Below, piece by piece: positions 12,886-45,260 of a stretch of 64,000 nucleotides of DNA. Every line of letters begins with the position of its first letter. The stretch's first letter is position 1. A program made the translations under genes and the position numbers. The notes beneath the pieces were generated by a model. The model saw nothing but the letters and a program-made list of their open reading frames with translations. It searched no databases and was not told the origin of the DNA. The stretch comes from Lyngbya sp. HA4199-MV5 (GTDB lineage: Bacteria; Cyanobacteriota; Cyanobacteriia; Leptolyngbyales; Leptolyngbyaceae), in contig JAHHHL010000022.1 of NCBI GenBank assembly GCA_019359375.1, positions 1-64,000 on the forward strand, written 5' to 3'.

Positions 12886-12916
12886 CTAAACAACCCATCT
12901 ATCAGGAGACGTTGCT

Positions 12917-14035: not shown

Positions 14036-14075
14036 AACCATTCAGTTTTTCATTCATCGTGTGTGAGGATTTATT

Positions 14076-16616: not shown

Positions 16617-16647
16617 GTGTCGCTGTACTTCTCAGGAGTTTTAACTC

Positions 16648-17466: not shown

Positions 17467-17480
17467 TGCTTTGAGATCTG

Positions 17481-17506
17481 CGACCTCTTAAGGAAGTCAG
17501 AGGTCG
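17481..17506. terminator. Hairpin after methyltransferase 1
   Basis: CGACCTCT and AGAGGTCG form a perfect 8-bp stem around 10 bases, 15 bases after the stop codon. No T-run follows. It may end or process the receptor-methyltransferase transcript. Confidence 0.45.
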
Positions 17507-17549
17507 ATCGGTTTGCTTTCTTTTCCGTAATTTATTTGGAGCAATTGCA

Positions 17550-18278: not shown

Positions 18279-18289
18279 GCAGGAGTGCT

Positions 18290-20381: not shown

Positions 20382-20555
20382 AAGTAGTTTTTAGTTTTTG
20401 GTCGTTAGTTGTTAGAAGCAGTGAGCTAGCAACAAACAACTTTTCTTGTATGACCGAAGAGCTTTACAACTAACAACCCTCTTAGAAATCTTCTCACAGT
20501 CAGAGCGGAGAACACTAAATTCAGTACTGTTTTGAAGTTTCAAGGAGTTCAATCG

Positions 20556-22082
20556 ATGACAGCCGTGATTGCTGAAAGTCCTTACCAGCAGAAAATTCCA
20601 AGAACGGGCTGGTGGGCAGGTAATTTTCGCTTGGTTAATTTGTCCGGTAAATTGCTCGGCGCTCATGTGGCTCACGCTGCCTTAATTCTCTTGTGGGCGG
20701 GCAGCATGACGTTGTTTGAGTTATCGCGCTTCATTCCCACCAAGCCGATGTATGAGCAGGGATTGATTATCCTACCTCACCTGGCAACGCTGGGCTTTGG
20801 CGTTGGGGCAGGCGGACAAATCACCAGCGTCTATCCTTACTTTGTGATTGCTGTCTTGCATATCATTCCATCGGTCATTCTAGCAGCCGGAGGTATCTAT
20901 CATTCGCTGCTGGGTCCAGAAGTGCTGGAGGATAATCCTACCTGGGCAGGCTTCTTTGGCTACGACTGGAAAGACATTGATAAAATGACAACCATTCTGG
21001 GTATCCATCTGGTGTTGCTGGGCTTGGGAGCCTGGTTGCTGGTTGCCAAAGCCATGTTCTGGGGTGGACTCTTTGACCCCTGGGTGGCAGGTGGCGGTGA
21101 TGTACGCGTGATTAACCATCCGACTTTGAATCCAGCTACCATTTTTGGTTACCTGTTTGGCGCACATGGAGCCGAAGGGATGGCAGCCGTGAATAATCTG
21201 GAAGATGTCGTTGGGGGGCATATCTGGGTTGGGCTACTCTGTATCGGCGGCGGCTTGTTTCACATCCTGACGCAACCGTTTGCTTGGGCACGGCGCGTTT
21301 TAATCTACTCCGGCGAGGCGTATCTGTCTTACAGCATCGGTGCCGTTGCCTACATGGGGTTTTTAGCCGCCTACTTTATCAGCGTCAATAATACAGTCTA
21401 TCCAGAAGTGTTCTACGGTCCATTAGGAACACTGACGAGCCAGGTGCCAACAGAAAAGCTGCCAACGGCGATCGGCATTATTTCGTCTCGCGGCTGGTTA
21501 GCCACGTTCCACTTTGTTCTGGCAGGGCTATTTTTGGCAGGTCACATTTGGCACGCGATTCGGGCACGGGGCGATGCGGCTGGGTTTGATTTCAAGCGGG
21601 GTGATGTGGTGCGATCGGCTAGAGATGCGCAAACCGGGAACCTCTCCACTCCCATTAATTCCTCAGATTTCACCTTGAATTTTCTGAAGAATCTACCCAT
21701 TTACCGAGCGGGGCTTTCTCCACTCACACGCGGCTTGGAAATTGGCATGGCGCATGGCTACTGGCTCATCGGTCCGTTTGTGAAACTGGGTCCCTTTCGT
21801 GACTCCAGCTCAGCTAATCTGGCGGGTTTGATTGCCGCTGCGAGTCTCATTGTCATTGCAACAGTATGTCTCTCCTTGTATGGCAGTGTCACCTTTGAAC
21901 GACGGTTAGAAACGGTACCGCGCCCCACCTTTGCAGAGACGATTCCCAACGTTCCCACCTCTTTGCAAACGGTGGATGGTTGGAGCCAGTTTGCGAGTGG
22001 CTTTTTGATTGGTGGGATTGGTGGCACGATTTTTGCCTACTTGCTGTTGAACAACCTTGACCTGTTTCGACAACTGGGTTAA
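20556..22082 (+). CDS. IsiA-PsaL fusion chlorophyll-binding protein
   Basis: This 508-residue protein begins with a full IsiA-like domain (about 1-350, [56 protein letters not shown]). It continues with a PsaL-like domain (about 360-508, [62 protein letters not shown]). PsaL is the photosystem I trimerisation subunit, so the fusion could place a CP43-like antenna in the PsaL position. Such fusions are known in some filamentous cyanobacteria. The ATG at 20556 has AAGGAG upstream. It lies 174 bases after isiA, with a T-rich spacer that may allow separate expression. Confidence 0.92.
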
Positions 22083-22109
22083 AGGCGCATGAATGAAGTT
22101 TGCTGTTCC

Positions 22110-22144
22110 GTCTACGGTTGCTGGTTACCCCCTCAACCGTAGAC
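22110..22144. terminator. Perfect inverted repeat after the IsiA-PsaL gene
   Basis: GTCTACGGTT and AACCGTAGAC form a perfect 10-bp stem with a 15-base loop, 28 bases after the stop codon. The T-run is weak, so it could be a terminator or an mRNA processing and stability hairpin between two isi genes. Confidence 0.5.
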
Positions 22145-22194
22145 CTTCCTCCTCTGCACGTTCACACAAGTATTCTTTTCACAAAGGCATTCCT

Positions 22195-22578
22195 ATGGTG
22201 CAAACAACTGTCATGCATCGATCGTTCCATCTTCAGCTCCTGCCAATGAAAGCAGCGGCTCAGCAGGTGATTAACGTTGAAGTGGTGGAATACACACACG
22301 GTCAACAAATTCTTTACCAACAAAGCCTGATGAGTTTAGGCGCAGACACTGCATTGCCAGAACTGTGCGATGAAAAGGATGTGACGATCGCCATTCTTGA
22401 AGGGTGCGGCAATCTGACCTTGAATCAGGAAAGTATTCCTCTGGAACCCGGTCGCTTTATTTTCATTCCCGCTCAAATGCCTCATACGCTGCAATCTTAT
22501 ACCAGTCTGGTGTTTTTGCTGTGTCGAAGCGAATCGCACGCAGGTTTACAGGACACTGCCTGGGCAATCACGTTGTAA
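22195..22578 (+). CDS. Small cupin-domain protein
   Basis: This 127-residue protein starts at MVQTTVMHRS; the open frame goes further upstream through the hairpin but is not conserved there. A cupin barrel is visible: DVTIAILEGCGNLTLNQESIPLEPGRFIFIPAQMPHTLQSYTSLVFLLCR. The second motif (G-x5-P-x4-H-x3) matches PGRFIFIPAQMPH, but the first motif lacks the usual HxH, so metal binding may be reduced. Such proteins often act as small sensors or ligand-binding proteins. Its place between isiA-type genes and isiB makes it part of the iron-stress cluster. Confidence 0.7.
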   Translation: MVQTTVMHRSFHLQLLPMKAAAQQVINVEVVEYTHGQQILYQQSLMSLGADTALPELCDEKDVTIAILEGCGNLTLNQESIPLEPGRFIFIPAQMPHTLQSYTSLVFLLCRSESHAGLQDTAWAITL

Positions 22579-30101: not shown

Positions 30102-32033
30102 TTAACATAGAAGGAGCAAATTGCAAGCGATCTTGGTTGAGCGGACAAAAATTTCTTGTTCGATCGCCTTGTCCACCGTCTTTGAGTAGTCAGGACTCAG
30201 TCCTGCTATCCTGATCACCTTCCAGCGATCGACACTCTCACCCCGATGATCGAGCAGTCTAGCCACCCACCTCACCCGTCGAATCTGGTAGTCCTCGATG
30301 CTTTCTGCCACTGTATCCAGATAAACCTTCGTTAGTGGCATCTGGTCGAGATGCTGTTCGATCAGTGCCAGTTGCCCGATCACCTTCGCAACCTTGCTCA
30401 CTGTAATTCTGATCGGTCTCTCGGCGACCAAAAGCCTTTGCATGGCTTCTTGCACCTGAGCCAAAATTTGCTCATCTCGTTCCTGCCAGTCTACCCGGTT
30501 ATTGATATAGACTGGCTTCTGGGCGGACGGTGAGTGCTGGCTGAGCCACACCTGATCGTACCGATAGAGCCAGGAATAGGTGGCGGGAGCGCAGCGGCGG
30601 AGTGCTGTTTTAGAAGCCTGGGGATGCTGGCTCCGAAGGGTACTCCAGGTCTGCCGATGTTGGGTTTTGCGATCGTCAGAGCCATTGGCTTGAGGATAGA
30701 TCACTTCTGTAGCAACCGAGTTCTGGGTTTCACTGTGCGATCGCCATTGAGGTTGAAGATCCAGAAGCTTGACATACCGATTAATAGTGTTGGGATCAAC
30801 CTGAAGCCGTCTAGCAGTTTCCCGCAATCCCAGTCGTTCCACTTCTACCAGTTGCTTCAACTCCTGCTGCCACACGGAACCCACCGCTTTGATTTTGCCT
30901 ATGCGGCGTGTCTCTGCTTCAGTCTGGTCAGGTCCTGTTCGGCAGTAGATGAAGCCACAGGAGCAAGTAAAGGTGCCGACAGGCTTTTTCGTATCGCAGC
31001 ACAGACTAATGGTCAGATTGGTGATTTTAGGTTTGAGGTAGTGTTTAGCAGCAGCATTCAGGCAGAGCCACGGTCCTGCGCCAAAGGGTTTATAGCTGCG
31101 ATCGACCTGGAAGAAGTCTGCAACCGATACACCCAAAAAGCGCAGCATCAGAAGATGTCGAAGGGGATGAAAGGTTTTCCGATGTTTCCGCACAATACCC
31201 GTGAGCCAGTTGTGCTCATCCTGCAAAGCCACGTTTGAATCTAAGGAGTCCAGGAGGTTGTGCCCATAGAACGACAAAAACTGACCCAGCAAGTCCCGCT
31301 GATGCACACGACCCGTTGCGGTTGCCAGTCCTCGCTCAATGAGCAGAGCGATGTACTGCTGGCGGAACCACGTTACAGCTCTAGAGGGTAGTGCCTGTTC
31401 GAGTAGAAAGTAGGCATCCTGAGCCAGTCCATGCAAGGTGCTTAAGGCTTTCTGACTGAAGGGTGCATCAGTCTGATGGCTGCGGCAGTTGTCAGGACTG
31501 GCAGCACTATAGGCGTGGCGATTTAAGCCCTGCATGGGAATAAGGCTAGACTGCAAAACTTCAGCATGATGAGGGCAGACAAGCACTCCCGGCACTTGGT
31601 GAAGGCGATGCCAATACAACTCGCCGTAGATTTGCTGGTCGTTTTGAGTGCATTGAGGGCAGAACCGGAAGTACCGTGGCACACTCACCAGGCTGGCTCG
31701 AATCCCCACTTTGTCGTGGATACCGCCGCCATCCCCCGATCGCATGGCTTCGATGATTTGTTGCGAGCGCTCTTGCGGCAAAAAGGCAGCATAGAAGCGG
31801 TAGAGTGTATGATTTTGAATCAACTCCTCGACGGTGATCTGTGAGATGAGAGACAGGTTTGTGGCTAACGCTTCCAAATTGGCTGGCAGGTCAGCAGTGG
31901 CGATCGCGTTTTTAGCATTGAACAGCTCTTGCACCGTGAGCTTGGGACCCGTATTGCCACTTCTGATGTGATATCGGGCAAGAACGCTGTAAAGGACTTC
32001 ATCTGGATAAGGCTTGGGGAAAAAGCTCAACAT
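30102..32033 (-). CDS. tnsD: TnsD/TniQ-family Tn7-like target-selection protein
   Basis: The 643-residue protein begins MLSFFPKPYPDEVLYSVLARY, the classical TniQ-domain start. A zinc site follows at about 130-170 (FCPQCTQND...VCPHHAEVL), as does a C-terminal HTH section (LGLRETARRLQVDPNTINRYVKLL). TniQ proteins of about 400 residues recruit a CRISPR complex; longer TnsD proteins bind a fixed attachment site. This length favours TnsD. The start at 32033 is chosen because earlier codons are not conserved. TnsA, TnsB and TnsC genes are absent, so it cannot mobilise anything alone. It lies upstream of two small ORFs and a CRISPR array. Confidence 0.82.
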   Translation of the reverse strand: MLSFFPKPYPDEVLYSVLARYHIRSGNTGPKLTVQELFNAKNAIATADLPANLEALATNLSLISQITVEELIQNHTLYRFYAAFLPQERSQQIIEAMRSGDGGGIHDKVGIRASLVSVPRYFRFCPQCTQNDQQIYGELYWHRLHQVPGVLVCPHHAEVLQSSLIPMQGLNRHAYSAASPDNCRSHQTDAPFSQKALSTLHGLAQDAYFLLEQALPSRAVTWFRQQYIALLIERGLATATGRVHQRDLLGQFLSFYGHNLLDSLDSNVALQDEHNWLTGIVRKHRKTFHPLRHLLMLRFLGVSVADFFQVDRSYKPFGAGPWLCLNAAAKHYLKPKITNLTISLCCDTKKPVGTFTCSCGFIYCRTGPDQTEAETRRIGKIKAVGSVWQQELKQLVEVERLGLRETARRLQVDPNTINRYVKLLDLQPQWRSHSETQNSVATEVIYPQANGSDDRKTQHRQTWSTLRSQHPQASKTALRRCAPATYSWLYRYDQVWLSQHSPSAQKPVYINNRVDWQERDEQILAQVQEAMQRLLVAERPIRITVSKVAKVIGQLALIEQHLDQMPLTKVYLDTVAESIEDYQIRRVRWVARLLDHRGESVDRWKVIRIAGLSPDYSKTVDKAIEQEIFVRSTKIACNLLLLC

Positions 32034-32122
32034 GGCAACAGCTTTAGATTGTCCTGACCCTGAGGCAAAAAAATGAGTGCCAGATTCACACTGATTCAAG
32101 CGCTAAATCTGGCATCGGATGA

Positions 32123-32329
32123 TTAACCTTGACTGCGTAATGCCCTCACAATTTCTTGCGCCAGGTTTTTGCTCCAGACTTGTTCAAAGGGGCAGGAGAT
32201 GCGATCTGTCTCCCGCTGAAACCAACTGATTGCCTCCTCTAGTTCACTCACCGAGTAGGTCTCGTTGATCAGCATTTTGGTGAGCAAGCTTTCGACCACT
32301 AACGCTTGAGCCTCATTCAAAACCAGCAT
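32123..32329 (-). CDS. Small conserved-looking hypothetical next to tnsD
   Basis: This 68-residue product (MLVLNEAQALVVESLLTK, SELEEAISWFQRETDRIS, SKNLAQEIVRALRS) is acidic and probably helical. AGGAG lies upstream of the start (about 32336-32340). It sits 89 bases upstream of tnsD and just downstream of another tiny ORF in the same direction, so the three may form one transcript. I do not recognise a family. Confidence 0.5.
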   Translation of the reverse strand: MLVLNEAQALVVESLLTKMLINETYSVSELEEAISWFQRETDRISCPFEQVWSKNLAQEIVRALRSQG

Positions 32330-32340
32330 TTGATGTTCTC

Positions 32341-32493
32341 CTATTGATTTTGATGCGTGTTTTTTGCAGAGGCTTCGCTACTGCTCTTACTGAGCATGAC
32401 GAGGGCTTTGTCGATGTCTCGCACCTTAATGCCTCTAAGCGTCGTCAAGATGGCTTTGATGAGAGCGACCTCATCGGGGGAAAGAGTAGTCAT
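32341..32493 (-). CDS. Very small ORF (50 codons) upstream of the 68-residue ORF
   Basis: The minus-strand frame encodes MTTLSPDEVALIKAILTTLR followed by a helical GIKVRDIDKALVMLSK and a polar tail. It ends 12 bases before the next gene starts. Two compact, neatly spaced frames upstream of tnsD suggest a real small-protein pair, but coding status rests only on spacing and composition. Confidence 0.4.
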   Translation of the reverse strand: MTTLSPDEVALIKAILTTLRGIKVRDIDKALVMLSKSSSEASAKNTHQNQ

Positions 32494-32593
32494 GGGTATG
32501 GCCTCAATAGTACAAGCGGTCAGAAATGGTGTATATACACCACTTGCATCACAGCATACCGGAAAATGGCTAAGAATCTACTCCTGATCCGAT

Positions 32594-32782
32594 ATGAATG
32601 CTAGGAAGGCAGACCAGAAGCAACTCAAAATAACCGTCTCTGAGGACATTTATAGTCTGTTGAAACGCCTAGCCGGTGTTAAGGAAACATCGATGAATAA
32701 AGTTGTCGGTGAAGCGCTCGATCTCTACCTCGAATCTGACCACGCAAGAGAACTTATCGATCGCCACCACTTAGAAGACTAA
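32594..32782 (+). CDS. Ribbon-helix-helix (CopG-like) protein
   Basis: This 62-residue protein has a beta strand KQLKITVSEDIYSLLKRLAG and a helix pair (VKETSMNKVVGEALDLYLES), typical of an RHH/CopG DNA-binding protein or antitoxin. No toxin gene is adjacent. It runs opposite to tnsD and ends 34 bases before the first CRISPR repeat, so it may regulate the small divergent operon. Confidence 0.6.
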   Translation: MNARKADQKQLKITVSEDIYSLLKRLAGVKETSMNKVVGEALDLYLESDHARELIDRHHLED

Positions 32783-32816
32783 AAGCTGGCGCTTCACGAG
32801 GTCACTGAAGAATGAT

Positions 32817-33640
32817 GTATTGAACACTTAACGGTTTCTGATGCTGACGCATGTCTTTGACGATCGTCAATATTTGAGTTCCCACGTCCCGATACTCAAC
32901 ACCTAACGGCATCTAGTGCTAACGCATGTATATCGTTAGGGGTGTTTTGTCTGACTTTTTTGCCGTACTCAATACCTAACGGTATCTAGTGCTAATGCAT
33001 GGTTACGGGTTTACACTACCAACGGTCGCCACGTTGTACTCAACACCTAACGGTATCTAGTGCTAATGCATGGCAAACGGCTCACAAACTGCCCTACAAC
33101 GTGATGTACTCAACACCTAACGGTATCTAGTGCTAATGCATCTGCGTCGATCGCAGCTTATGAGTCAGATTGACGGGTACTCAACACCTAACGGTATCTA
33201 GTGCTAATGCATGTGGAAAAACAATGACCGCTACAACAGTTCCGCCCAGTACTCAACACCTAACGGTATCTAGTGCTAATGCATTCCCAGAGCGCATCGA
33301 CAATTTCTTCAAGTTGGAAGTACTCAACACCTAACGGTATCTAGTGCTAATGCATGTGGAAAAACAATGACCGCTACAACAGTTCCGCCCAGTACTCAAC
33401 ACCTAACGGTATCTAGTGCTAATGCATTCCCAGAGCGCATCGACAATTTCTTCAAGTTGGAAGTACTCAACACCTAACGGTATCTAGTGCTAATGCATCG
33501 ACGATCGGTAGAGTCGAGCCCCTCGACACCATCGTACTCAACACCTAACGGTATCTAGTGCTAATGCATGTCGCTGGTTTGCTTTTCAGAAAATGCCTGC
33601 ATGCGTACTCAACACCTAACGGTATCTAGTGCTAATGCAT
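32817..33640 (-). CRISPR. CRISPR array, 12 repeats of 36 bp
   Basis: Repeats start at 32817, 32892, 32965, 33036, 33106, 33177, 33249, 33320, 33392, 33463, 33534 and 33605. The plus-strand consensus begins GTACTCAACACCTAACGGTA and ends TCTAGTGCTAATGCAT. The first three are degenerate (32817 strongly, 32892 moderately, 32965 by one base), marking the trailer end. The leader is therefore on the right and the array is read on the minus strand, in line with the cas genes. Spacers are 34-39 bases. Spacers at 33213 and 33285 are repeated exactly at 33356 and 33428. The 143-base period of that block indicates a tandem duplication. Confidence 0.97.
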
Positions 33641-33918
33641 CGCGTAGTCTAGAATCCTTACTTAGCGCAGGCTATCAGCCAAGTTTACAAGCACCTAAGA
33701 TAAAAGGAGATCAAAGCTTCAAAATTCGACAGAATCGGCTCGTTTACAGAAGCCGAAAAGCCTTCTCCCTTAGCTTTCACCGCATTGCAAGCATCTAGCA
33801 TCATGCTAAAAGCTCTAAATATCCCCTTCAGTAAGGGTTCTACTCTGTCAACACCCCCTATTGCAGAAAACAAGAAGACATCCTTACTAAAATATTGCGA
33901 ACCACCTGGTGATTCACT
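33641..33918 (-). promoter_or_regulatory. Probable CRISPR leader and cas5-array spacer
   Basis: This 278-base stretch joins the non-degenerate end of the array to the cas5 stop. By position it is the leader that would drive array transcription. It is moderately AT-rich and has a 62-codon minus-strand frame (33685-33873) that I do not consider coding. Confidence 0.5.
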
Positions 33919-34545
33919 TTAGACAGCTTGAATTTCAGTCCATGCTCTATCAGGTGGTTCCTGCAGGTCATATTGCTGTAGTTCATACCTCAGCCAACAC
34001 GTTCCTTTTGAACCAATGTGGTCAACCCAATAAGGCAACGTCAACAAACCATTCTCGTCCTGGACTAACCACCTTACAGTCTCTCTACGAAAACCTCTAA
34101 ACAAACTTACAGCATTAATCAAATCCCTGCTTTCTCCTAAAGACAGCCCACCAAAACGACGGACAGAGGCAGGGTTTGCAAAAGCTTGCTGTAAGCGCTT
34201 CGCTAGTGATGGCCGAGCCGTTTCAGTCTCTGCCTTGACCCACACAATAAATTGAACATCTGTCAACAACTCCTGGTAATCAGGTCGGATATTGGTGGGA
34301 TCATGAATGTCCCGCTTCTTATATCGATGAAACGTCCGAACAATGGTGGATTTTTTAGGCTCTGAGAGGAGGGCGATCGCAAGGCGAACGCCACAATGTT
34401 TGTAGCGATCCATCTCGCCAACCAGAGATAGTAACATGCCGTAAACAGTTGAAGGTGGTGGTACTGGATAGGTCTCAAAATATTCCCTTGCTTGGGATTG
34501 TCTAAAGCACGCGATCGGCACTTCAACTTCTAGAGCGACAATCAT
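33919..34545 (-). CDS. cas5: CRISPR Cas5, I-MYXAN (DevS/Cmx5) type
   Basis: This 208-residue Cas5 begins MIVALEVEVPIACFRQSQAR with YPVPPPSTVYGMLLSLVGE, the glycine-rich RAMP start. Downstream are PDYQELLTDVQFIVWVKAE and PASVRRFGGLSLGESRDLI, which match DevS-like Cas5 of the I-MYXAN (type I-B) group. Cas5 caps the 5' handle of the crRNA within Cascade. It follows cas7 after 12 bases and precedes the array. The gene appears intact. Confidence 0.85.
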   Translation of the reverse strand: MIVALEVEVPIACFRQSQAREYFETYPVPPPSTVYGMLLSLVGEMDRYKHCGVRLAIALLSEPKKSTIVRTFHRYKKRDIHDPTNIRPDYQELLTDVQFIVWVKAETETARPSLAKRLQQAFANPASVRRFGGLSLGESRDLINAVSLFRGFRRETVRWLVQDENGLLTLPYWVDHIGSKGTCWLRYELQQYDLQEPPDRAWTEIQAV

Positions 34546-34557
34546 GGTATTTCACTC

Positions 34558-35484
34558 CTACAGACCTTGAATATCCCTGGTAATAGTTTCCTTAAGTGCT
34601 GCTACAGCAGCTTTTGTACCAGGAAAAACATTAGCGCCCCAATCGCCTAAAGTTCCGGCAAGCTTGCCACCAATCCATAACTCTTTGGGATCAATGTCTC
34701 CAGCGTTAACTCGATTAATCAGGTCTGTTGCGGACAGGTTTCCTGCCTCATCTTGCTTGAAGCAATACAGCAAGCGAGGGGAGAAGTCATGCGTCCAGCG
34801 CAAAACAATAGTTTCAGGGGCAAAGTCGTAGAGAAAACGGGCATGGTTACCTGCAACTTCGCCGAGCGGGACTAGACCATCCAGCACGGCGTGGATGCGA
34901 GCTTTGTCCTTAAGGCGATCGGGCGTCAGCGCAAACCCATATTGGTAGCGAGTAGCATGTACCTCTGTGCCATACAACGATGTCCGATCCTTTTCTTTAC
35001 TCACAGCATTAAACGTAATGTCTCCCACAAACGGGGTCGTTGAAACAGCACGGGTAACCTCTAAGACCCCTCGCCTATTTACAATAGTCCCCTTCGGTTG
35101 TTTGCTTTTCTTCTTGGGTGGCTCCAATGGCTCATCAGCATTTTCCAACTTCGCTGCTTCGGTCCGCATAAAGCCGAGCACATCATCATCAATAAAGCTG
35201 ACGGCATCAAAACTGGGATTAGTCACTGAAAATTTGTTAGCGTCATCATCCCAGCACCTGTTAACCCTATAGCCAGACCGTTGCCAGTAGTAACGCAAAG
35301 CCCAACGAATGGCTTCAGCCGAGACAGTCGTGTGGGTTTCGCCTTGCCACCAGAGCTTTTGTAAGGGAGTAATGTTACCCTCATTCTCACCACGGTTGTT
35401 TGCAGCCGCACCGTGGTGAGTTAAGACATTTCCAAAGAGATGCAACACTAAAGACTCTCCTTCCAATCGCTTGGTCTTTGACAT
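34558..35484 (-). CDS. cas7: CRISPR Cas7 (Cst2/DevR family)
   Basis: This 308-residue Cas7/Cst2/DevR protein shows the family pattern LHLFGNVLTHHGAAANNRGENEGNITPLQKLWW, HTTVSAEAIRWALRYYWQRSGYRVNR, and later DITFNAVSKEKDRTSLYGTEVHATRYQYGFAL. Cas7 forms the backbone filament of Cascade on the spacer RNA. The length is normal. It lies between the cas8 remnant and cas5 with 11- and 12-base spacing, in the DevT-DevR-DevS order. It appears intact. Confidence 0.9.
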   Translation of the reverse strand: MSKTKRLEGESLVLHLFGNVLTHHGAAANNRGENEGNITPLQKLWWQGETHTTVSAEAIRWALRYYWQRSGYRVNRCWDDDANKFSVTNPSFDAVSFIDDDVLGFMRTEAAKLENADEPLEPPKKKSKQPKGTIVNRRGVLEVTRAVSTTPFVGDITFNAVSKEKDRTSLYGTEVHATRYQYGFALTPDRLKDKARIHAVLDGLVPLGEVAGNHARFLYDFAPETIVLRWTHDFSPRLLYCFKQDEAGNLSATDLINRVNAGDIDPKELWIGGKLAGTLGDWGANVFPGTKAAVAALKETITRDIQGL

Positions 35485-35495
35485 GACCGCTTGAA

Positions 35496-36449
35496 TTAAT
35501 TGGCAGTCTCAGAATCAGGCTGTCTAGCCTCAGCGGTTGTCGCGCTGGAGATATTGCTTTCTGCGGTGCCGCTTTTCTTATAGCTAGCTAACGCAAGTAA
35601 AGTTAAATCTCGTGTGAGGCTCCAATCGCTTTCCCCTGTTGTGATGGGTAACAGTGCTTCCCAATGCTCTTGCAGGATAGGTGGCTGCCCTGCCTCAGAA
35701 AAAAACCGACTGATGAAACCACGAAGTGTTATGGCATTCCTACAGCGTAACAACTCGGAACGAATGCGTATATTTCGACGTTCAATCTGGGCGTAGTAAC
35801 CTTCAAGCGTCTGATCGTAAATTTTGGCGTAAATTCTTTGCAAAGCTTCGTGGCAGGCTTTGACAAACAATTTCTTGGACTGGTCTTCCCACTCGGATTC
35901 CTCGATCATCAGCCGTAGTCCTTCTTTTTCAGCACTTATGTCCTCGGCTAGCTTCTTATTGGTCGTTCTCTCAGAAAAACGGCACCACCAGGGCAGATCT
36001 TGAGCAAGATTAGCGGCAATCACGCCGCGAGTAGCACTAACGGTGACAGCAGTTTTTCCTTCGTCATTGCAGACTCTGTTTTGCGGTAAATACTGGCAAC
36101 TCGATTGGTACTGAAGCAGAGTTTCCTGCGTCGCTTTTATGGTCTCTACCCTAGTCCGAACGATTTGCTGTTTTGCCCACTTGGTTTTCCCAAACAGAAC
36201 ACACTGGCATCGCCTCGCTCTACTGTCTGTCGTTGGAACTGCTACCGCTTGCAAGGCAAGAAATTTAAGTGCAGCCTCCTCCAAATTTGCCGTCCAGAAA
36301 TTCTCATAACTAGTATTTCTGCGTTCTCGATCGCCTTCAGCATGGGTGCCTAACTCATCAATCTCTGGAATGACAAGGACATAGCGTACTGTCTCATGCC
36401 CTGAACCAGCAGCATGAACACCAGCGGCACGACTTAAACCATGATGCGG
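35496..36449 (-). pseudogene. cas8: CRISPR Cas8 (DevT/Cmx8-like) remnant lacking N-terminus
   Basis: The open frame of about 317 codons covers the C-terminal part of a Cas8-type large subunit. It contains VRYVLVIPEIDELGTHAEGD, a middle LPWWCRFS, and LRGFISRFFSEAGQP. It opens right after a TAA at 36450-36452 and has no ATG or GTG in its first 55 codons; the first possible initiator is a TTG at 36284. I-MYXAN Cas8 proteins are usually about 500 residues or more, so about a third is missing. The break lies at the 3' end of an unrelated small gene, indicating a deletion or insertion junction near 36440. Confidence 0.7.
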
Positions 36450-36829: not shown

Positions 36830-36925
36830 GCTTCAAGAAATGAGCATTTTTAGTTGTGAGATACAAAAGTACTGCAAGTTGCAACGTTTAGCAAGTAGCT
36901 TTTGACAAATTACATGGTCTGTTGA

Positions 36926-37178
36926 CTTCTGCACTCGGAGTTTGCGGTTCTAAGGTCGGAGTTCCGTGTTCTAAGCTTGATGTTCCGTGTTCTGTAGCTT
37001 GCTTCTGCGGAGCAGTGCCTGGAGTGCCGAGCTTTGAGGTCGGAGTTTCGTGTTTTGAGGTTAAAGCTTTGAGTTCTGATGTCGGAGTGTCGAGCTTTGA
37101 GGTCGAAGTTCCGCGATCTGAGGTCAGACTTTCAGGCTCAAAAGTCGAAATTTCGTGTCTAGAGGTTGGAAGGTGGGG
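36926..37178 (+). repeat. 21-bp degenerate tandem repeat array (about 11 units)
   Basis: Units such as TTCTAAGGTCGGAGTTCCGTG and TTTGAGGTCGGAGTTTCGTG recur with a strict 21-base period. The repeat keeps both strands open (seven-residue periodic peptides), which explains long but meaningless frames here. It is related to in-frame 21-bp repeats in the alpha-mannosidase gene. The remaining bases of 36641-37198 hold no gene. Confidence 0.75.
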
Positions 37179-37198
37179 GTTAGAGAGCGAGATTTCGA

Positions 37199-37608
37199 TC
37201 ATCGCAAGAGAGCAATGAAGCCTGCTTGTTCAAAGTGCCTGTCGTGGGTCAATGCTTCGAGGATATTTCGTTGCTGCATGATGCAGAAGGAAGCACAGTC
37301 CGTGTGGCTCCAAGCTTGATCGGGGCGCTGCTGGTAAAGGGTGAGTGCTTCGTAAAAAAGGCTGCTTGTTTGAGGAATGATCTCAACGTTGGGCTTACGG
37401 GTAAATTGTTGAATGAGTGTCACTGCGTTTTGCCGAAGAAATGCGCCTTGCTTAGAAAACGAGTTTAATACCTCGGTAAAAACCATTTCGCTGGTAACAA
37501 TCCGGAGGGATGAAAGGGCAGCGGTAACACTGACTGCGGTTTGATTAAGCCATCATCAGCATTCAGGATGGCGACTCAGTAACCCGTATCGGCAAAGACG
37601 GTTTTCAT
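37199..37608 (-). pseudogene. vapC: VapC-like PIN toxin, inactivated
   Basis: The gene should start at 37608 (MKTVFADTGY), but TGA at 37576-37578 falls where the family has tryptophan. A frameshift after GLIKPQ then moves the rest (TAALSSLRIVTSEMVFTEVLN, ALTHDRHFEQAGF) to another frame. The conserved acidic residues of the PIN fold (FADTGY, TEVLN, DRHF) survive across the pieces. Two independent lesions mean a true pseudogene. It overlaps the antitoxin stop by 4 bases. Confidence 0.8.
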
Positions 37609-37910: not shown

Positions 37911-38208
37911 GGTTCTAAGGCTGATAGAGTCTGTCCAAATTCTAACAGGGGAGATTGTTTGTTGAAGGGTGAAGGCTTGCAGTGAGAAGAGGAGGGGAGA
38001 AAAGGCGGTCGCTCTTGTGTAACTAACAGGAACAGGTAAGTTTGCTTGATGAAGCTGGTTTATTACACTGATGCTAAGTTATTTTCAATGGGTAGTCGCG
38101 CTATTACGACTAAATTTAGACAGCCGTACACCCTTCTTATTGGGTTGGCGTAAACTATTAAACAACACTGACCAAAAGAAATTCAGAGGAATTGTTGAGA
38201 CTAAATTT

Positions 38209-39510
38209 ATGGATCTATTAACCTTACTAGCCGTTCTAGCTCTAATTGGTGCAGCCATACAGTTAAAGATCATGCAAAACGAGCGAGATCGGCTTAATAG
38301 AGACCTGCAACAATACAAAAGTTTGGCTGACACGGGAGAGCTAGACAAACTAATTCGGACTAAAGAGGAGATCAATAAACAAGTTAGCAATTTGCAACAG
38401 CAGCTATCTAGCCTTGAGGAAGAAGCCTATATTCAGTCGTTTGGATTTTACGAGCCAAAATATGACTTTATCAATTCTGAAGATTACGCTGTAAGGCTAA
38501 GACAAGTAAAATTGGAACAGAAAAGAATGATAAAAGAACGCACTGCGGTAGAAAGCAAAACTAAGTTGGTTTTCAACGATAGCGAAAAGAAAGGGCGGAA
38601 GCTAACCGAAAACCTTCAAAAACTTGTGCTAATAGCTTTCAATACTGAAGCTGATGATGTAATTCTCAGAGTTAAGCATAGTAACATTCAATCTTCAGAG
38701 GAGCGGATAATTGCAAGTTTTAGAAGATTGAATAAGCTATCGGAAACAACCACCTGTGAAATTACACAGGAATATCTCAACCTAAAATTGTCAGAGTTAC
38801 ACCTTCAGTATGAAATGGCTTGTAAGAAGCAGCGCGAAAAAGAACAGGATCAAGAAAGAAAAAGAGACGACAACGAACGCAAAGCTCTTGCAAAAGCCGA
38901 AGAAGAGATTAAAAAAGCAGAACAGAAAGAAGAAGTTTATCGTCAGGAAATCGAAAGCATTCGACAAGCGATTCAACAGGCTGAGGGAGATAAACTCAAG
39001 CAACTGGAGTTTGAAAATAATCAGCTTCAGCGTGAGTTGGAAAAAGCTAAAGTTGAAACAGAACAGGCTACGTTGCGCTATAGAGCGAGGAAAGAAGGTT
39101 ATATCTATGTGATCTCAAATATTGGTTCTTTAGGGCAAGGCATCTACAGAATATGTAAAAGTATTCGAGACGAGGATTTTATTAGTGAAATGAATCCTGC
39201 TGTCCCTTTCCCGTTTGATACTCACTTTAAGATTCGTTCGGAAGATGCTTCAGATACGCTAGCGCGTTTACACAGCCGATTCCAGTCTAGAAGAGTAAAT
39301 TTGCTCAACGATAGAAGGGAATTCTTTCAAATCTCAATAGATGAAATTGCTCAAGCTGTTGATGAAATTAATCGACAAACTGGGATGCTGAATATTCTTA
39401 TTTCTGAACGTGTGGCTCAGGCATATGAGTATCGTAGAACTGATGCTGAACGTAATAAAAAGACTGACTCAACAACAACTGATACATACAGTTACAATGC
39501 GACAGCCTAA
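38209..39510 (+). CDS. DUF4041 / T5orf172 (GIY-YIG-like) coiled-coil protein
   Basis: From ATG 38209 the 433-residue protein has an N-terminal membrane helix (LLTLLAVLALIGAAIQL), a DUF4041-like helical domain (about 60-190) and a long charged coiled coil (about 210-310). A C-terminal T5orf172 module, GYIYVISNIGSLGQGIYRICKSIR, ends with NDRREFFQIS. T5orf172 is a GIY-YIG nuclease-like fold. The usual second motif YKIG reads YRIC here, so catalysis is doubtful. The frame is open to 38071 with a possible earlier start. Such proteins occur in phage and defence islands. Confidence 0.7.
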   Translation: MDLLTLLAVLALIGAAIQLKIMQNERDRLNRDLQQYKSLADTGELDKLIRTKEEINKQVSNLQQQLSSLEEEAYIQSFGFYEPKYDFINSEDYAVRLRQVKLEQKRMIKERTAVESKTKLVFNDSEKKGRKLTENLQKLVLIAFNTEADDVILRVKHSNIQSSEERIIASFRRLNKLSETTTCEITQEYLNLKLSELHLQYEMACKKQREKEQDQERKRDDNERKALAKAEEEIKKAEQKEEVYRQEIESIRQAIQQAEGDKLKQLEFENNQLQRELEKAKVETEQATLRYRARKEGYIYVISNIGSLGQGIYRICKSIRDEDFISEMNPAVPFPFDTHFKIRSEDASDTLARLHSRFQSRRVNLLNDRREFFQISIDEIAQAVDEINRQTGMLNILISERVAQAYEYRRTDAERNKKTDSTTTDTYSYNATA

Positions 39511-39534: not shown

Positions 39535-41511
39535 CTATAAGCTGCGTACAATTCGGAAACCGATGTGATCAGCAGCTTGCTCTGAGCCTTTCCATAAACG
39601 GTAAGAGGAGCGACAGTTAGAAGGCTCGTTGCGCCAGGAGCCACCTCGAATTACATGGTTTTGATTGCCAGAGCTATCGATCCAAGCCTCACCGTTAGTC
39701 GGAGCACTATTATAGTTTTCATGCCAGTGGTCTTTACACCACTCCCAAACGTTACCGTGCATATCAAACAAACCAAAAGCATTAGCAACTTTCAGTTCTC
39801 CAACTTGTAGTGTTTTTGCTCGATTGATTCCCTTTGGTTCTAAGCGATATGAATAAGTACCATCATAGTTTGCCAAGTCTGAGGTAATTGTTTGTCCAAA
39901 GTGGAATGGAGTTGTAGTGCCAGCTCGACAAGCGTATTCCCACTCAGCTTCTGTTGGCAAACGATATGTAGTTCCTGTTTTCTGAGATAGAAGATTGCAA
40001 AATTCTACTGCATCATGCCAAGAAACTTCTACAACAGGTCGATTAAGTCCCCAGTTACTTGGTGAAGGACGTAGTTTAAGCTTCTTAGGATTAAGCTGTA
40101 ATTGAGCTATCGCTCTCCATTGAGCAAATGTGATGGAGAATTTACTTATCAAAAATGACTTAATTGTCACCATATGCTGAGGGCGTTCATTCTTGTAGAT
40201 CCTGTTTTCTGATTCAGACGAACCCATTAGTAAAGTTCCACCAGGCACAAACGCCATTTCAATTGATACGCCATTGATTTCTTCAACAACAAACCAGTTT
40301 TTCCCAGTGTGTTGAGCGATGCTTGTCCCGTAAGAATCAATTTCTAAAACATCAAAGATAAACTCTTGAAAATTAGAAGTAGATAACTCAGGAATTTGAA
40401 AAATTCGCTGCTCCTCCGCAGGCTTCACAATTTGAACCGGAACGGCAGGTGTTGCTAAAGTCGAGCGCCCTAACGTACTTTTTGGGGTTTTGATAGGAGA
40501 CTTTTGGGAAGCTTTAGACGTTTCAGACGTTTGGTAGACTTCTGGTTGAGGGGAGGTAGCTTCTGTATAAAGATGGCTACTCCATCGAGCTATTTTCTTT
40601 TCAATGCGCTCAATTGCAATTCGGGCTTCTTGTCTTTGAGTAATGGATTGCGACACATCAACTACTTGCCACCAAAGGTTCTTGGCAGTCTCAAAGTCTT
40701 CCTCGATTTCATCTTTTTCAGCCTGACTAACAAGAACTTCAATATCGGCTGACGTAACCGCATCAGGCAGTAACGGTTGAAAGGCTGTTATGGTAGATTC
40801 AGTACGAATGCGAGGCGTTTGTTCGACTCTATCGTGCCGATACTGCAAGTTTAAGGCTGGAACTCGCTGTCGTAAGTAAGTTTCTAACTGGCTGGGCAGT
40901 GTGTACTGAGCTAATCCTTCGACTAAAGCATAGGTAAACGCTCCTTGCTGTAGTCCTTCTAGCTCATAAGAGTATTGCCCATAATCGCATGAGAAAATAG
41001 TCGTGATGCCACGCTCTTGGGCAGAAGCGATTGTTTGTTCCCCGATTGAGCTACCAAAACTCTTTCTACCCGTTACCTGCCGACAAGCATCCAAGATTAA
41101 AACAATATCTGCATCTTTATGTAATCGTAAGGTAGCGAGTACCTCATCGAGTGGCAAGGCAAATCGTTCGATTTTATCTTCCAAACAATCTGAGGTGATC
41201 AAATAATCACGCCCATTTCGACTAATTCCGTGACCACTAAAGTAAAACCAGAAGCGATCAACTTTACCCACACGGTTGGGCTGGAGATCTCGTTCAAGCA
41301 ATTGCAGCAGATTAGAGCATGTAGGATAGGTTGAACTGCTCCGATGTTCCTCATCTCCTAAGCATTGAATGACATGATCTGCACCAAAGCCTGCCCGATT
41401 GCTCAAAAAGTCGCCAATCTTTTGGGCATCATTGACGGCATACTTTAGTTTCCGTTCTGGGTGATGCAGATAATCGTTAATGCCAATGACAACTGCCCAG
41501 TTATTTCCCAT
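39535..41511 (-). CDS. Orthocaspase fused to formylglycine-generating-enzyme-like domain
   Basis: The 658-residue protein starts with a caspase-like (C14) domain (about 1-255). The catalytic histidine is in YFSGHG (about residue 94) and the cysteine in LILDACRQ (about 143), both intact. A helical linker (about 260-400) leads to an FGE/SUMF1-type C-type-lectin domain (about 425-658): MAFVPGGTLLMGSSESE, RLPTEAEWEYACRAGT, GNVWEWCKDHW, IRGGSWRNEP, IGFRIVRSL. FGE domains act as ligand-binding modules and as variable proteins of diversity-generating retroelements. A Pepco-like gene begins 354 bases upstream and ends at the neighbouring base, so the two are co-transcribed. Confidence 0.85.
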   Translation of the reverse strand: MGNNWAVVIGINDYLHHPERKLKYAVNDAQKIGDFLSNRAGFGADHVIQCLGDEEHRSSSTYPTCSNLLQLLERDLQPNRVGKVDRFWFYFSGHGISRNGRDYLITSDCLEDKIERFALPLDEVLATLRLHKDADIVLILDACRQVTGRKSFGSSIGEQTIASAQERGITTIFSCDYGQYSYELEGLQQGAFTYALVEGLAQYTLPSQLETYLRQRVPALNLQYRHDRVEQTPRIRTESTITAFQPLLPDAVTSADIEVLVSQAEKDEIEEDFETAKNLWWQVVDVSQSITQRQEARIAIERIEKKIARWSSHLYTEATSPQPEVYQTSETSKASQKSPIKTPKSTLGRSTLATPAVPVQIVKPAEEQRIFQIPELSTSNFQEFIFDVLEIDSYGTSIAQHTGKNWFVVEEINGVSIEMAFVPGGTLLMGSSESENRIYKNERPQHMVTIKSFLISKFSITFAQWRAIAQLQLNPKKLKLRPSPSNWGLNRPVVEVSWHDAVEFCNLLSQKTGTTYRLPTEAEWEYACRAGTTTPFHFGQTITSDLANYDGTYSYRLEPKGINRAKTLQVGELKVANAFGLFDMHGNVWEWCKDHWHENYNSAPTNGEAWIDSSGNQNHVIRGGSWRNEPSNCRSSYRLWKGSEQAADHIGFRIVRSL

Positions 41512-41865: not shown

Positions 41866-42369
41866 AAATGGGTGCGGCTAGGGAGATTAACCTGATAATA
41901 GCCTCCAGTCAGCGAATGTCGTGCTTGCTTCTGCACAATCGATCGCTACTTTCGCCTAAGCGATCGTCACCTCTGCATGAGCCGTCCTAACCAATGCACA
42001 AGTAGTCGTTACCATTGCACAAGCGATCGTTACTTCTGCACAAGTTATCGTTACCAACTCACAAGCTGTCGTTAGGAATGGTGAAGCCATCGTCACTAAC
42101 GGTAAAGCTGTCGTTACTAACGGTGAAGTTGCCATAAAGTTTGCAGGTGCGATCGTCTCACTCACAAACCCAGAAACAGCCAGGGGCAGACCGTTTCTTT
42201 CGCTTGCAGCGATTCAGACAACTCCATCCGTACACTACGCCCGTGCAAACAATGGTGGACTTAAAAACTTCATTGAGAAAATATGCTTTTTCTGTGCCAT
42301 TCCCTGAACCGAATGCTTGTAATCGTCAGCCATGCTGGTCTCATCCACTCTCATCAGAGGCTTGCTTCT
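41866..42369. other. Non-coding stretch between the caspase pair and next gene
   Basis: The stretch is dominated by a 21-bp tandem repeat block (41960-42150). The flanks show no convincing gene, and divergent promoters for the Pepco-caspase pair and the gene at 42370 must lie here. Confidence 0.4.
41960..42150 (+). repeat. 21-bp tandem repeat array (about 9 units)
   Basis: Units such as GCGATCGTTACTTCTGCACAA and GCTGTCGTTACTAACGGTGAA repeat every 21 bases in non-coding DNA. The phase and shared ATC...CC...CAA skeleton parallel the repeats in the alpha-mannosidase gene and at 36926. Confidence 0.75.
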
Positions 42370-42771
42370 ATGACCCGCAAAAAACGTACCTCTCAAATGC
42401 TCGAAAAAGCCGAACTCCGTTCTGCTGGCTTGAAAGCTGTTGACCCGACAATGGACTTTGGTGATACTCGCAGCGTTCCCAACCTCACTACCCAGATTGC
42501 ACAACTCCGCAGCAAAATCGATTCCTACAACACGGCTCTCGCCATCATCGATTCCTCCAAAGCGGAAATTGCAGCCCTGGAGAGAAATCTGGGCGACCTG
42601 GCAGACCAGATGTTGATTGGGGTCGCGTTCAAATATGGCAAGAACAGCCGCGAATACGAAATGGCTGGCGGAGTCCGCAAGAGTGAGCGAATTCGTCGAA
42701 GCAGCGTGAGCCGTTTAAAGGCTGGAGCCGAAGAACCCTCTGCTACCAGTGGTAGTATGCAAGCGGTTTAG
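42370..42771 (+). CDS. Hypothetical basic helical protein
   Basis: The 133-residue protein (MTRKKRTSQMLEKAELRSAGL, ALAIIDSSKAEIAALERNLGDLADQMLIGVAFKYGKNSREYEMAGGVRKSERI) is basic at both ends with a coiled-coil-prone centre. Its C-terminal GGVRKSERIRRSS resembles a tail found in several cyanobacterial hypotheticals. ATG at 42370 is preferred over 42283. It shares no obvious operon. Function unknown. Confidence 0.55.
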   Translation: MTRKKRTSQMLEKAELRSAGLKAVDPTMDFGDTRSVPNLTTQIAQLRSKIDSYNTALAIIDSSKAEIAALERNLGDLADQMLIGVAFKYGKNSREYEMAGGVRKSERIRRSSVSRLKAGAEEPSATSGSMQAV

Positions 42772-42788
42772 TGTTTGTCTCAACGAAT

Positions 42789-42840
42789 GGCGATCGCCGT
42801 CTGCTGAACGCTTCAAACCCAGCGGCGCGATCGCCCTTTT
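42789..42840. terminator. Probable bidirectional terminator
   Basis: GGCGATCGC and GCGATCGCC arms flank a GC-rich loop, followed by CTTTT, between two convergent genes. The arms are HIP1 palindromes, so part of the pairing is expected by composition. Confidence 0.45.
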
Positions 42841-42849
42841 CACAACCCA

Positions 42850-43338
42850 TTAACCATTTAACTTTCGCTGCATGACCGCTTTTGCCGTTTCGTAATCTTC
42901 GCCAATGAGATAAGAGAAGTGATAGTAACTGGCAAGGTAAAAATCACAGCCGAATTTTTGGTAACGATCGGCAATTGCCAGAAACCCATACCGAGCCGCC
43001 CATCCATCGTTAAAGTAGGACTCATGAAACGAATCGTGTAGAAAGAGTGTGAGCGTTTGATGGTTCACACCGGGAATCAGACGAATGAGTGCAATGTTGG
43101 GATGATGAGAACGGGGCACTGGCAGCAAGACATCAAAGCCATCAAACGTCAGAAAGTCTGCTAAATCTGCCTCGGTTGACTCGTAATGGGGAGAAGAGTT
43201 TTCTGGTAGAATAACGAAATGTCGCCAGGATAGAAAGAACTCGTGCTTGGCATCAAGTCCAGGATCGATGTCTAACCGCCAACGATCGTCTTCACAAAGA
43301 TCCTCAATCACTTCACCTAGAAGATCTGTCAGTTTCAT
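42850..43338 (-). CDS. Hypothetical protein beside glmS
   Basis: This 162-residue soluble protein (MKLTDLLGEVIEDLCEDDRWRLDIDPGL, LADFLTFDGFDVLLPVPRSHHPNIALIRL, FLHDSFHESYFNDGWAARYGFLAIADRYQKFGCDFYLASYYHFSYLIG) is rich in aromatic residues. No motif gives a clear function. It is 8 bases downstream of glmS in the same direction, so it is likely expressed with it. Confidence 0.6.
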   Translation of the reverse strand: MKLTDLLGEVIEDLCEDDRWRLDIDPGLDAKHEFFLSWRHFVILPENSSPHYESTEADLADFLTFDGFDVLLPVPRSHHPNIALIRLIPGVNHQTLTLFLHDSFHESYFNDGWAARYGFLAIADRYQKFGCDFYLASYYHFSYLIGEDYETAKAVMQRKLNG

Positions 43339-43346
43339 ACATTGAC

Positions 43347-45260
43347 CTATTCCACAGTTACACTTTTGGCGAGGTTCCTTGGCTGATCCACATCCAAACC
43401 CCTGCGTGCGGCAATGTGATACGCCAGCAGTTGCAGGGGAATGACGGTGACGATCGGCGACAGAAGCTCATCCACATGGGGCACGGGAATTAAGGTGTCA
43501 AAGGTTTCGGCGGCTTCATGTTCATCCATGGGTGTGACACCAATCAGGCGAGCATCGCGTGCCTTTGCTTCTTGAGCATTAGAGAGCACTTTTTCAAACA
43601 CCGTTCCAGGCATGGCGATCGCCACCACAGGTACCTTGGCATCCAACAGGGCGATCGGTCCGTGCTTCATTTCGCCTGCGGGATAGCCTTCGGCATGGAT
43701 GTAGCTGATTTCTTTAAGTTTGAGGGCACCTTCGAGGGCGATCGGAAAATTGATGCCGCGTCCTAAAAAGATGAAGTCTTGCGTTTCAGCAAAATCATGA
43801 GCGAGTTGTTCGATGTAGCGTTCCTGGCTTTCGAGCACCACTTCAATCTGCGACGGAAGCTGCTGTAAACCTGCCAGCAATTGTTCAAGCTGGGTGGGTG
43901 CAATAACCTGGCGATGCTGTGCAAGGTCGATCGCCAGACAGTAAAACGCCATCAATTGCGCGACGAAGGTTTTCGTGGCGGCTACACCAATTTCAATCCC
44001 CGCGTGGGTGTCAATCATATTGGGCACTAAATCTCCCAACGAACTTTCGGGACGGTTGGTGATGCCTAATAGGCGCGCTTGAAATTCTGCTGAGTGTCCC
44101 GATCGACGTTGCTTCTCCATTGCCAACGCTGCCAGCGTATCGGCAGTTTCGCCCGATTGCGTCACGCCGATGGTGAGGGTGTGAGAAGTCAGCGGTGCAG
44201 GCGCGTAGCGAAACTCAGACGCATACTGTACAGAGGTTGGAATCTCAGCAATTTGTTCTAGCAAGTACTTGCCAACCAGAGCCGCGTGCCAACTGGTACC
44301 ACACGCCAAGATTTGAATGTGCTGCAAATCGGCATACAGGTCAGCAGGCAGATTCAGGCGAATGGGTGAATGGGTGTGATCGGCGGCTGTCCAATGGGTA
44401 TCGATATAGGTTTCCAGACACGATCGCACCACTCCTGGCTGCTCATAGATTTCCTTGAGCATGAAGTGTTTGAAGCCCTGCTTCTCTACCATCACCGGAT
44501 TCCAGTTGAGGGTGCGAGGCGTTTTCTTCAAGCGCTGCCCTTCAAAGCTGTAGACCTCAACGCCCAGCGGTGTCATTCGTGCCAGTTCGCCGTTATCCAG
44601 GGTTAGCACCGCACGAGTATAGGGGACGATCGCAGGCGTATCCGAGGCACAGTAGAACTCGCCCTGCCCAAAGCCAATCACGACGGGAGCCTGTTGCCGC
44701 GCCACAATCAGTTCATCGGGATAATCGGCGGAGATAACGGCGATCGCAAACGCGCCTTCCAGTCGATTCACCACCTGCCGTACCGCTTCTAAAAACGGTG
44801 ATGGTTGAATTGACACCAGGGGGCTAGTTTCCAGACTTTCTGCCTGCTGTAGCACTTCAGCAATCAGATGTGGCACAACTTCTGTATCGGTATCAGAGCG
44901 AAACTCGCAGCCGCGCTCTTTCAGTTCTTCTCGCAGTTCACGATAGTTCTCAATGATGCCGTTTTGGATCACCGCTATCCGCATCGCCATGTCCATATGC
45001 GGATGGGCGTTGTATTCTTCTGGCTTGCCGTGGGTTGCCCAGCGGGTATGAGCGATGCCAACCCGCGCCGGATTTTCTTCTCCCGCTAATTTTTCTTCCA
45101 GATTGTGTAGCTTGCCCTTAGCACGGACGCAGTGAATGTCGCCTTCCAGCACCGTGGCGATGCCAGCAGAATCATACCCGCGATATTCCAGCTTCCGCAG
45201 CCCTTCGAGCAAAATACCGCTTGCTGCCTGCGTGCCAATATAGCCAACGATTCCGCACAT
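43347..45260 (-). CDS. glmS: Glutamine-fructose-6-phosphate aminotransferase
   Basis: The 637-residue enzyme makes glucosamine-6-phosphate for peptidoglycan and lipopolysaccharide. It has the N-terminal nucleophile Cys2 in MCGIVGYIG, glutaminase motifs (HTRWATHGKPEEYNAHPH), two SIS sugar-isomerase domains (LACGTSWHAALVGKYLLE, GVTQSGETADTLAAL, FLGRGINFPIALEGALKLKEIS), and the C-terminal PRNLAKSVTVE ending. The length is typical. It is a core gene; no glmS ribozyme is expected or seen in cyanobacteria. Confidence 0.97.
   Translation of the reverse strand: MCGIVGYIGTQAASGILLEGLRKLEYRGYDSAGIATVLEGDIHCVRAKGKLHNLEEKLAGEENPARVGIAHTRWATHGKPEEYNAHPHMDMAMRIAVIQNGIIENYRELREELKERGCEFRSDTDTEVVPHLIAEVLQQAESLETSPLVSIQPSPFLEAVRQVVNRLEGAFAIAVISADYPDELIVARQQAPVVIGFGQGEFYCASDTPAIVPYTRAVLTLDNGELARMTPLGVEVYSFEGQRLKKTPRTLNWNPVMVEKQGFKHFMLKEIYEQPGVVRSCLETYIDTHWTAADHTHSPIRLNLPADLYADLQHIQILACGTSWHAALVGKYLLEQIAEIPTSVQYASEFRYAPAPLTSHTLTIGVTQSGETADTLAALAMEKQRRSGHSAEFQARLLGITNRPESSLGDLVPNMIDTHAGIEIGVAATKTFVAQLMAFYCLAIDLAQHRQVIAPTQLEQLLAGLQQLPSQIEVVLESQERYIEQLAHDFAETQDFIFLGRGINFPIALEGALKLKEISYIHAEGYPAGEMKHGPIALLDAKVPVVAIAMPGTVFEKVLSNAQEAKARDARLIGVTPMDEHEAAETFDTLIPVPHVDELLSPIVTVIPLQLLAYHIAARRGLDVDQPRNLAKSVTVE

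Follow-up and report, generated by a model that had tools for sequence, protein, structure and literature searches.

A block of tnsD, CRISPR array, cas5, cas7 and truncated cas8 near glmS in Lyngbya sp. HA4199-MV5 is very probably an immobile remnant of a type I-B1 CRISPR-associated transposon

Type I-B1 CRISPR-associated transposons (CASTs; CRISPR, clustered regularly interspaced short palindromic repeats), such as Tn7743 and AvCAST, carry a glmS-type TnsD, the I-B (I-MYXAN) proteins Cas5, Cas7 and Cas8, and an array of their own with no cas1, cas2 or cas3 beside it (PMC11406308, PMC12719977). The type is defined by a TnsD that homes to glmS together with a second TniQ that works with Cascade, and it has been reported only from cyanobacteria (PMC11406308). 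In contrast, elements of type I-B2, represented by PmcCAST, have a TnsA-TnsB fusion and a tRNA-homing TnsD (PMC11406308). The protospacer-adjacent motif (PAM) is 5'-AT for AvCAST and 5'-ATG for PmcCAST, and AvCAST inserts 43–49 bp beyond the spacer site (PMC12719977). Here, we describe a block of genes in the first 64,000 bases (the window) of contig C4 (112,444 bp) of the cyanobacterium Lyngbya sp. HA4199-MV5, whose draft genome comprises 6.9 Mb in 95 contigs, and we conclude that this block is very probably an immobile remnant of a type I-B1 CAST.

The block consists of tnsD, a CRISPR array, cas5, cas7 and a cas8 stump, all on the minus strand and arranged from right to left as cas8 (C-terminal part)-cas7-cas5-array-tnsD (Table 1). 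It resembles Tn7743 and AvCAST in its TnsD, its Cas5, Cas7 and Cas8, its cyanobacterial host, and its array without neighboring cas1, cas2 and cas3; unlike them, it lacks tnsA, tnsB, tnsC, tniQ, cas6, the cas8 N-terminus and the transposon ends, and it lies off the glmS site. The best matches among solved structures for Cas5, Cas7, Cas8 and Cas11 are those of PmcCAST (PDB 8fcj and related), but the layout and the glmS-type TnsD set the remnant apart from type I-B2. A preliminary description, made from the sequence alone, had assigned these parts to one block without cas6 or tnsABC and had proposed a decayed type I-B CAST. Every part was recovered where that description placed it, with matches far beyond chance, and the proposed decay is backed by the gene order, the near-complete close relatives, the TnsD tree, and searches that found no I-B TnsB, cas6 or ends.

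For comparison, TnsD served as the query against an even sample of 388 genomes of the class, taken from a larger set, and 26 of them, host included, gave a match at E ≤ 1e-30; stretches were fetched from 16 + 2 of the 25 other positive genomes (7 were left out), and their genes were compared by tblastn. Compared genomes are given G-numbers (G000 is the host genome), contigs C-numbers, and fetched stretches L-numbers. The full I-B1 order, tnsA-tnsB-tnsC-tniQ-cas6-cas8-cas7-cas5-array-tnsD, was found in two of them: G178, where it lies directly past glmS, and G258:C48, which belongs to the host's family and whose tnsA is cut by the contig end. These elements hold the same order together with the genes that the window lacks, so that the earlier statement that type I-B CASTs carry just the Cas set seen here has to be corrected, as complete ones also have cas6 and a full-length cas8 (named Cas6/Cmx6 and Cas8a1/Cmx1 by NCBIfam in G258). 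Identity between the window and G258 is 74% for Cas5, 75% for Cas7, 58% for the C-terminal part of Cas8 and 67% for TnsD, and the window TnsD is 69% identical to that of G034. For G251 and G207, the stretches fetched contain the I-B1 set but no tnsD. In a collection of named genomes, the closest TnsD matches came from a metagenome-assembled genome (MAG) named Myxacorys californica and from a Pantanalinema MAG.

In a tree of 27 TniQ/TnsD proteins, a branch supported at 100/100 separates 12 rows (the window, G073, G258:C48, G034, G145, G178, two from G300, and four CAST TniQs) from 15 other TnsDs, many of them from ordinary Tn7-like elements; the program flagged long branches that meet, and the root is a midpoint only. 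The window TnsD clusters with those of G073, G258:C48, G034 and G145 (100/99), that is, with CAST-linked rows and not outside them. Its full-length family match and its grouping with TnsDs of CASTs beside glmS point to the glmS-homing type. Homologues begin at residue 22 of the open reading frame (ORF), and the true start is probably at 32036. For three genomes of this cluster, the stretches fetched contain a CAST-clade tnsD and no other CAST genes: G034 (L045:8893-10839), G145 (L047:8174-10102) and G073 (L048:9215-10993); in G034, tnsA and tnsB lie ~25 kb from tnsD, beside glmS, and TnsB sites flank both edges of that stretch, with tnsD outside it and with flanking 5-mers that did not match by eye. 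It seems that tnsD outlasts the rest of the CAST.

All that is missing from the window relative to the complete elements falls into a single gap, which extends over tnsA, tnsB, tnsC, tniQ, cas6 and about the first 240 residues of cas8. Searches of the interval 24–43.4 kb with complete relatives yielded no fragments of tnsA, tnsB, tnsC, cas6 or a second tniQ above chance-level scores (E ≤ 5); the search for TnsA was confined to this interval. The transposase core is thus absent from the block, as is a short Cascade-coupled TniQ: the PADLOC model TniQ_IB gave 2.1e-95 for the G258 TniQ versus 2.1e-34 for the window TnsD, and the block holds no second tniQ. Of the Cascade genes, cas5 and cas7 are whole, cas8 is represented by its C-terminal part (ORF 35496-36284, minus strand; TIGR03486, E 3.2e-42), which begins to match at about residue 240 of the 534-residue G258 Cas8, and cas6 is absent. 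A profile built from six CAST-type Cas6 proteins found nothing in the host genome, while it was positive in 5 of the 9 genomes tested together, including both with near-complete CASTs, and silent in the host, G034, G073 and G145. The genome also has no I-B-type TnsB. Members of the TnsB C-terminal family are confined to two sets of TnsB, TnsC and a short TniQ, at G000:C92 (L010:7836-11974) and G000:C20 (L011:9400-13011); both match V-K models best, and a transposase supplied in trans from them was rejected as a candidate on this ground. TnsB-binding ends were not detectable anywhere on C4, where the best site scored 13.9 bits (five shuffled copies of C4, 10.8–13.5 bits; the matrix's own training sites, 22–31 bits), although strongly diverged ends could escape; in G258:C48, which was outside the training set, the matrix found two candidate sites of 19.9 and 17.7 bits. 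Since no I-B TnsB, CAST cas6 or ends could be detected, the block looks immobile.

The remnant lies ~6 kb from the presumed glmS gene, and it is oriented toward it as in complete CASTs. An insertion at attTn7 itself was considered and ruled out, because the site is empty: as in G084, only eight bases separate the glmS stop from the start of an adjoining 162-aa ORF, and in G270 the opening codons of that ORF lead directly into end repeats. By eye, element ends begin ~20–26 nt beyond the glmS stop in G034, G178 and G270. Upstream of glmS, synteny extends up to ~18 kb with four members of the genus (with a fifth, G276, the comparison stops earlier at a contig end), and downstream at most two small genes are common to genus members. 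Comparing window 1–42 kb with the glmS-downstream side of genus members for synteny did not reveal the route of insertion; the element may have arrived by homing to glmS and then been displaced, or may have come by RNA-guided insertion. The segment next to glmS in the window (42283-43338) and the glmS-downstream regions of G217, G251, G135, G270 and G276 differ in each genome, which marks a variable spot. At G258:C90 (L059, L147), a tnsA-tnsB-tnsC-tnsD set with a TnsD of the other clade adjoins glmS, and I-B cas6-cas8-cas7-cas5 genes lie ~7–13 kb beyond; this could be either a further kind of element or an element inserted beside an older CAST.

The array, which is of the CAST type, contains 12 repeats of 36 nt and 11 spacers, nine of them unique, and a 143-bp stretch of two array units is duplicated exactly. 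Departures from the consensus are limited to the three leftmost repeats, at 8, 3 and 1 positions; the remaining nine are identical. From the degenerate repeats on the tnsD side and the repeat orientation in relatives, we infer that the array is transcribed together with the cas genes. No cas1 lies beside the block, and the sole Cas1 found in the genome is part of a type I-E locus on contig C63; a complete cas operon nearby, which would have refuted the CAST reading, was not encountered; cas2 and cas3 were not seen among the ORFs examined around the block, where no profile search for them was made. Because the C63 locus (with Cas2e, Cas6e and Cas5e adjoining Cas1) is of type I-E with a different repeat, and because the core of the window repeat occurs nowhere else in the genome with ≤3 mismatches allowed, a matching adaptation module would have been present formerly or have acted from outside.

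A search of the undivided array against the host genome gave, apart from the array itself, a single match, at C84:41049-41083, which coincides exactly with the cas5-adjacent spacer (33570-33604); no remaining spacer matched the host genome at E ≤ 1. This spacer is taken as the newest because the degenerate repeats lie at the opposite end of the array, here and in G258. Its target encodes residues 16–27 of a 439-aa KaiB-HisKA-HATPase protein, which is the architecture of SasA, a clock-output kinase. The trinucleotide ATG lies immediately 5' of the protospacer on the strand identical to the CRISPR RNA (crRNA), and an insertion at the AvCAST distance would fall near codon ~42. The sasA-like gene is intact, and neither CAST genes nor end sites were found in the surrounding 40 kb that were fetched. 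Among six other members of the genus, 28–33 of the 35 positions are identical; as the best of them, G135, reaches 33/35 versus 35/35 in the host, the spacer was probably taken from the host lineage after its split from G135. Antisense control of the sasA-like mRNA was ruled out, since the crRNA has the same sequence as the coding strand and cannot pair with the mRNA. Listings of open-licence PMC papers on sasA with CASTs and on self-targeting with CASTs showed no report of such a case. An I-B1 subgroup with a comM-targeting guide likewise has an array spacer to a host gene, but there the guide serves for homing and tnsD is lost (PMC11406308), whereas the remnant keeps tnsD, its self-matching spacer is the newest of the array, and nothing is inserted at the sasA-like gene.

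Other targets were sought without success. Seven of the nine unique spacers (the self-matching and oldest ones left out) gave no match in viral_contigs when 26 PAM-side bases were scanned with every sixth base free; the whole array had no match in plasmids and, in phages, a single 27-nt match at chance level (E 0.8). Spacer 33142-33176 matches near the tnsC-tnsD junction of G270 (26/35, L051:9260) and of G258:C90 (25/35, L059:11160), against 24 for the best of 60 shuffled copies; with nine spacers tried, aim at rival Tn7 elements is suggestive, not secure, and is not claimed.

Taken together, these observations fit a history in which one deletion or replacement would have taken out the stretch from tnsA through tnsB, tnsC, tniQ and cas6 to the N-terminus of cas8. 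The remnant would neither transpose nor build a working Cascade; Cas5, Cas7 and Cas11 may still be made, and the perfectly matching newest spacer would be tolerated because no effector or matching transposase is left. The cas8 stump could yield Cas11 from an internal start, the predicted product being 137 residues long versus 138 aa for PmcCAST Cas11 (8fcj_J, E 1.2e-12). The preliminary description had also suggested that the remnant may bind target DNA through TnsD and crRNA. TnsD alone may still bind the 3' end of glmS. Binding guided by crRNA finds no support, because TnsD is of the glmS-homing type and because Cas6, the Cascade-coupled TniQ and the PAM-reading part of Cas8 are gone; in a related I-B Cascade, the N-terminal domain of Cas8 reads the PAM together with Cas5 (PMC11096372). 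The missing cas6 and cas8 N-terminus thus argue against a Cascade with mature crRNA and PAM-dependent binding.

The cas5, cas7, cas8-stump and tnsD frames are open, and relative-rate tests against the G258 copies showed no significant excess of changes in the window (largest chi-square 2.5 in 16 cas/tnsD comparisons; a seventeenth, with the out-of-frame Cas8 of G207, was dropped). Two control comparisons with glmS gave chi-squares of 4.9 (fewer changes in the window) and 0.9. Synonymous distances of 1.2–2.3 are near saturation and make dN/dS little informative. Together, the open frames and the absence of a rate difference point to a loss that is not old.

Several points weigh against an immobile I-B1 remnant produced in this way. 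The open frames and equal rates are equally compatible with continued use; no ancestor with the same element has been seen, so a single deletion is deduced; and the comparators are themselves worn, with one in-frame stop in G258 cas5 and a short tnsD (446 aa) in G178. The remnant lies off the att site, the absence of TnsA is not established genome-wide, and the genome holds four further TniB matches, in frames of 828–931 aa. At G258:C90, the TnsD near the I-B cas genes falls in the other clade, and the association of clade and Cas genes is therefore imperfect.

A refinement of the remnant reading, which we consider unlikely, is that the sasA-like spacer was caught while the CAST still worked, so that insertion was aimed at the gene and loss of the transposase-TniQ-Cas6-Cas8 half was favored. 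The perfect match in the host as against 33/35 in the nearest sampled relative, the ATG flank that suits I-B CAST PAMs, and an intact gene that the AvCAST distance would have hit near codon ~42 (PMC12719977) all agree with this order of events, and Lactobacillus acidophilus NCFM has been described as having lost a cas cassette adjacent to self spacers (PMC6990116). That array likewise combines a self-matching spacer with lost effector genes (PMC6990116), but it belonged to a cutting immune system and the present effector guided a transposon; CASTs do not cut, and a self guide would be milder than in immunity. The order of events is unproven, as the spacer may have entered an array that was already dead. 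Loss of SasA is probably survivable, which also counts against this reading.

Doubtful, and less probable than that refinement, is that TnsD, or Cas5-Cas7-Cas11 with unprocessed array RNA, or both, have been retained as a device for DNA binding or regulation, acting perhaps at glmS or the sasA-like gene. Intact frames and equal substitution rates would fit such use, and the tnsD genes without other CAST genes in the G145 and G073 stretches, or apart from them in G034, could mean that tnsD is kept; the device would have to work with no Cas6 of CAST type, without the Cas8 part that reads the PAM with Cas5 in the related Cascade (PMC11096372), and with a crRNA that does not pair with the target mRNA. 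That the block is a worn immune I-MYXAN locus beside an unrelated tnsD by chance was already disfavored and is very improbable: immune I-B systems have these Cas families too, as the NCBIfam names indicate, but the gene order and orientation, the repeat and the protein identities all agree with CASTs. We give equally little weight to an assembly or contamination artefact, which a draft of many contigs might allow, since the junction lies well inside a long contig and none of the searches made found the rest of the CAST in another part of the genome.

The remnant is a concrete case for asking how CASTs gain spacers and die. A perfect, PAM-flanked match to the chromosome shows that host sequences can enter such arrays as guides even though CASTs lack cas1 and cas2, and the self-matching newest spacer may hint at why CASTs die; if capture of the guide did precede the loss, and if this were general, self guides would be a main route of CAST death, as self spacers are for immune CRISPR systems. 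It also cautions that cas and tnsD genes near glmS are not necessarily a working CAST.

Table 1. Features of the putative CAST remnant and of the nearby glmS site (window coordinates)
Feature	Position	Strand	Basis
tnsD, TniQ core and TnsD C-terminal domain, probably glmS-homing type	30102..32099	-	Pfam TnsD E 5.2e-124, TniQ 1.9e-31; tree; identity to relatives
CRISPR array, 12 repeats	32817..33640	-	repeat 34/36 identical to G258; orientation relative to cas genes as in G251, G207 (by eye)
Presumed newest (cas5-proximal) spacer, match to host sasA-like gene	33570..33604	-	35/35, E 2.4e-10; 5' flank ATG
Presumed leader, between cas5 and array	33641..33918	-	position only
cas5 (I-B / I-MYXAN)	33919..34545	-	TIGR02586 E 3.2e-44; PmcCAST Cas5 8fcj_A E 4.5e-70
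cas7 (Cst2/DevR)	34558..35484	-	TIGR02585 E 2.5e-35; PmcCAST Cas7 8fcj_C E 5.1e-62
cas8 stump, C-terminal part only	35496..36446 (open frame; homology from 36386 down)	-	TIGR03486; PmcCAST Cas8 8fcj_I
Possible internal cas11, 137 aa	35496..35909	-	ATG at 35909 preceded by AAGAAGGA; match to PmcCAST Cas11 8fcj_J
Break region; cas8 N-terminus, cas6, tniQ, tnsC, tnsB, tnsA missing	36387..36446	.	homology to complete CASTs lost
Expected attTn7 insertion point, 20-26 nt beyond glmS stop, unoccupied	43321..43327	.	glmS joined to intact 162-aa ORF as in G084
162-aa ORF directly after glmS, intact	42850..43338	-	86% identical to ORF after glmS in G084
glmS (presumed), TnsD home gene	43347..45260	-	94-96% identical to GlmS of genus members

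Elsewhere in the window, a short low-complexity ORF of ~21-bp imperfect repeats lies beside the break (36888-37202 and 37021-37167). A caspase (Peptidase_C14) fused to an FGE-sulfatase domain (39535-41511) adjoins a DUF4041/T5orf172 gene (38071-39510) and is possible defence cargo. Judged by eye, a run of ORFs at ~3758-22578 resembles iron-uptake and iron-stress genes, with TonB-like receptors and ExbB/ExbD-like, IsiA-like and flavodoxin-like products.

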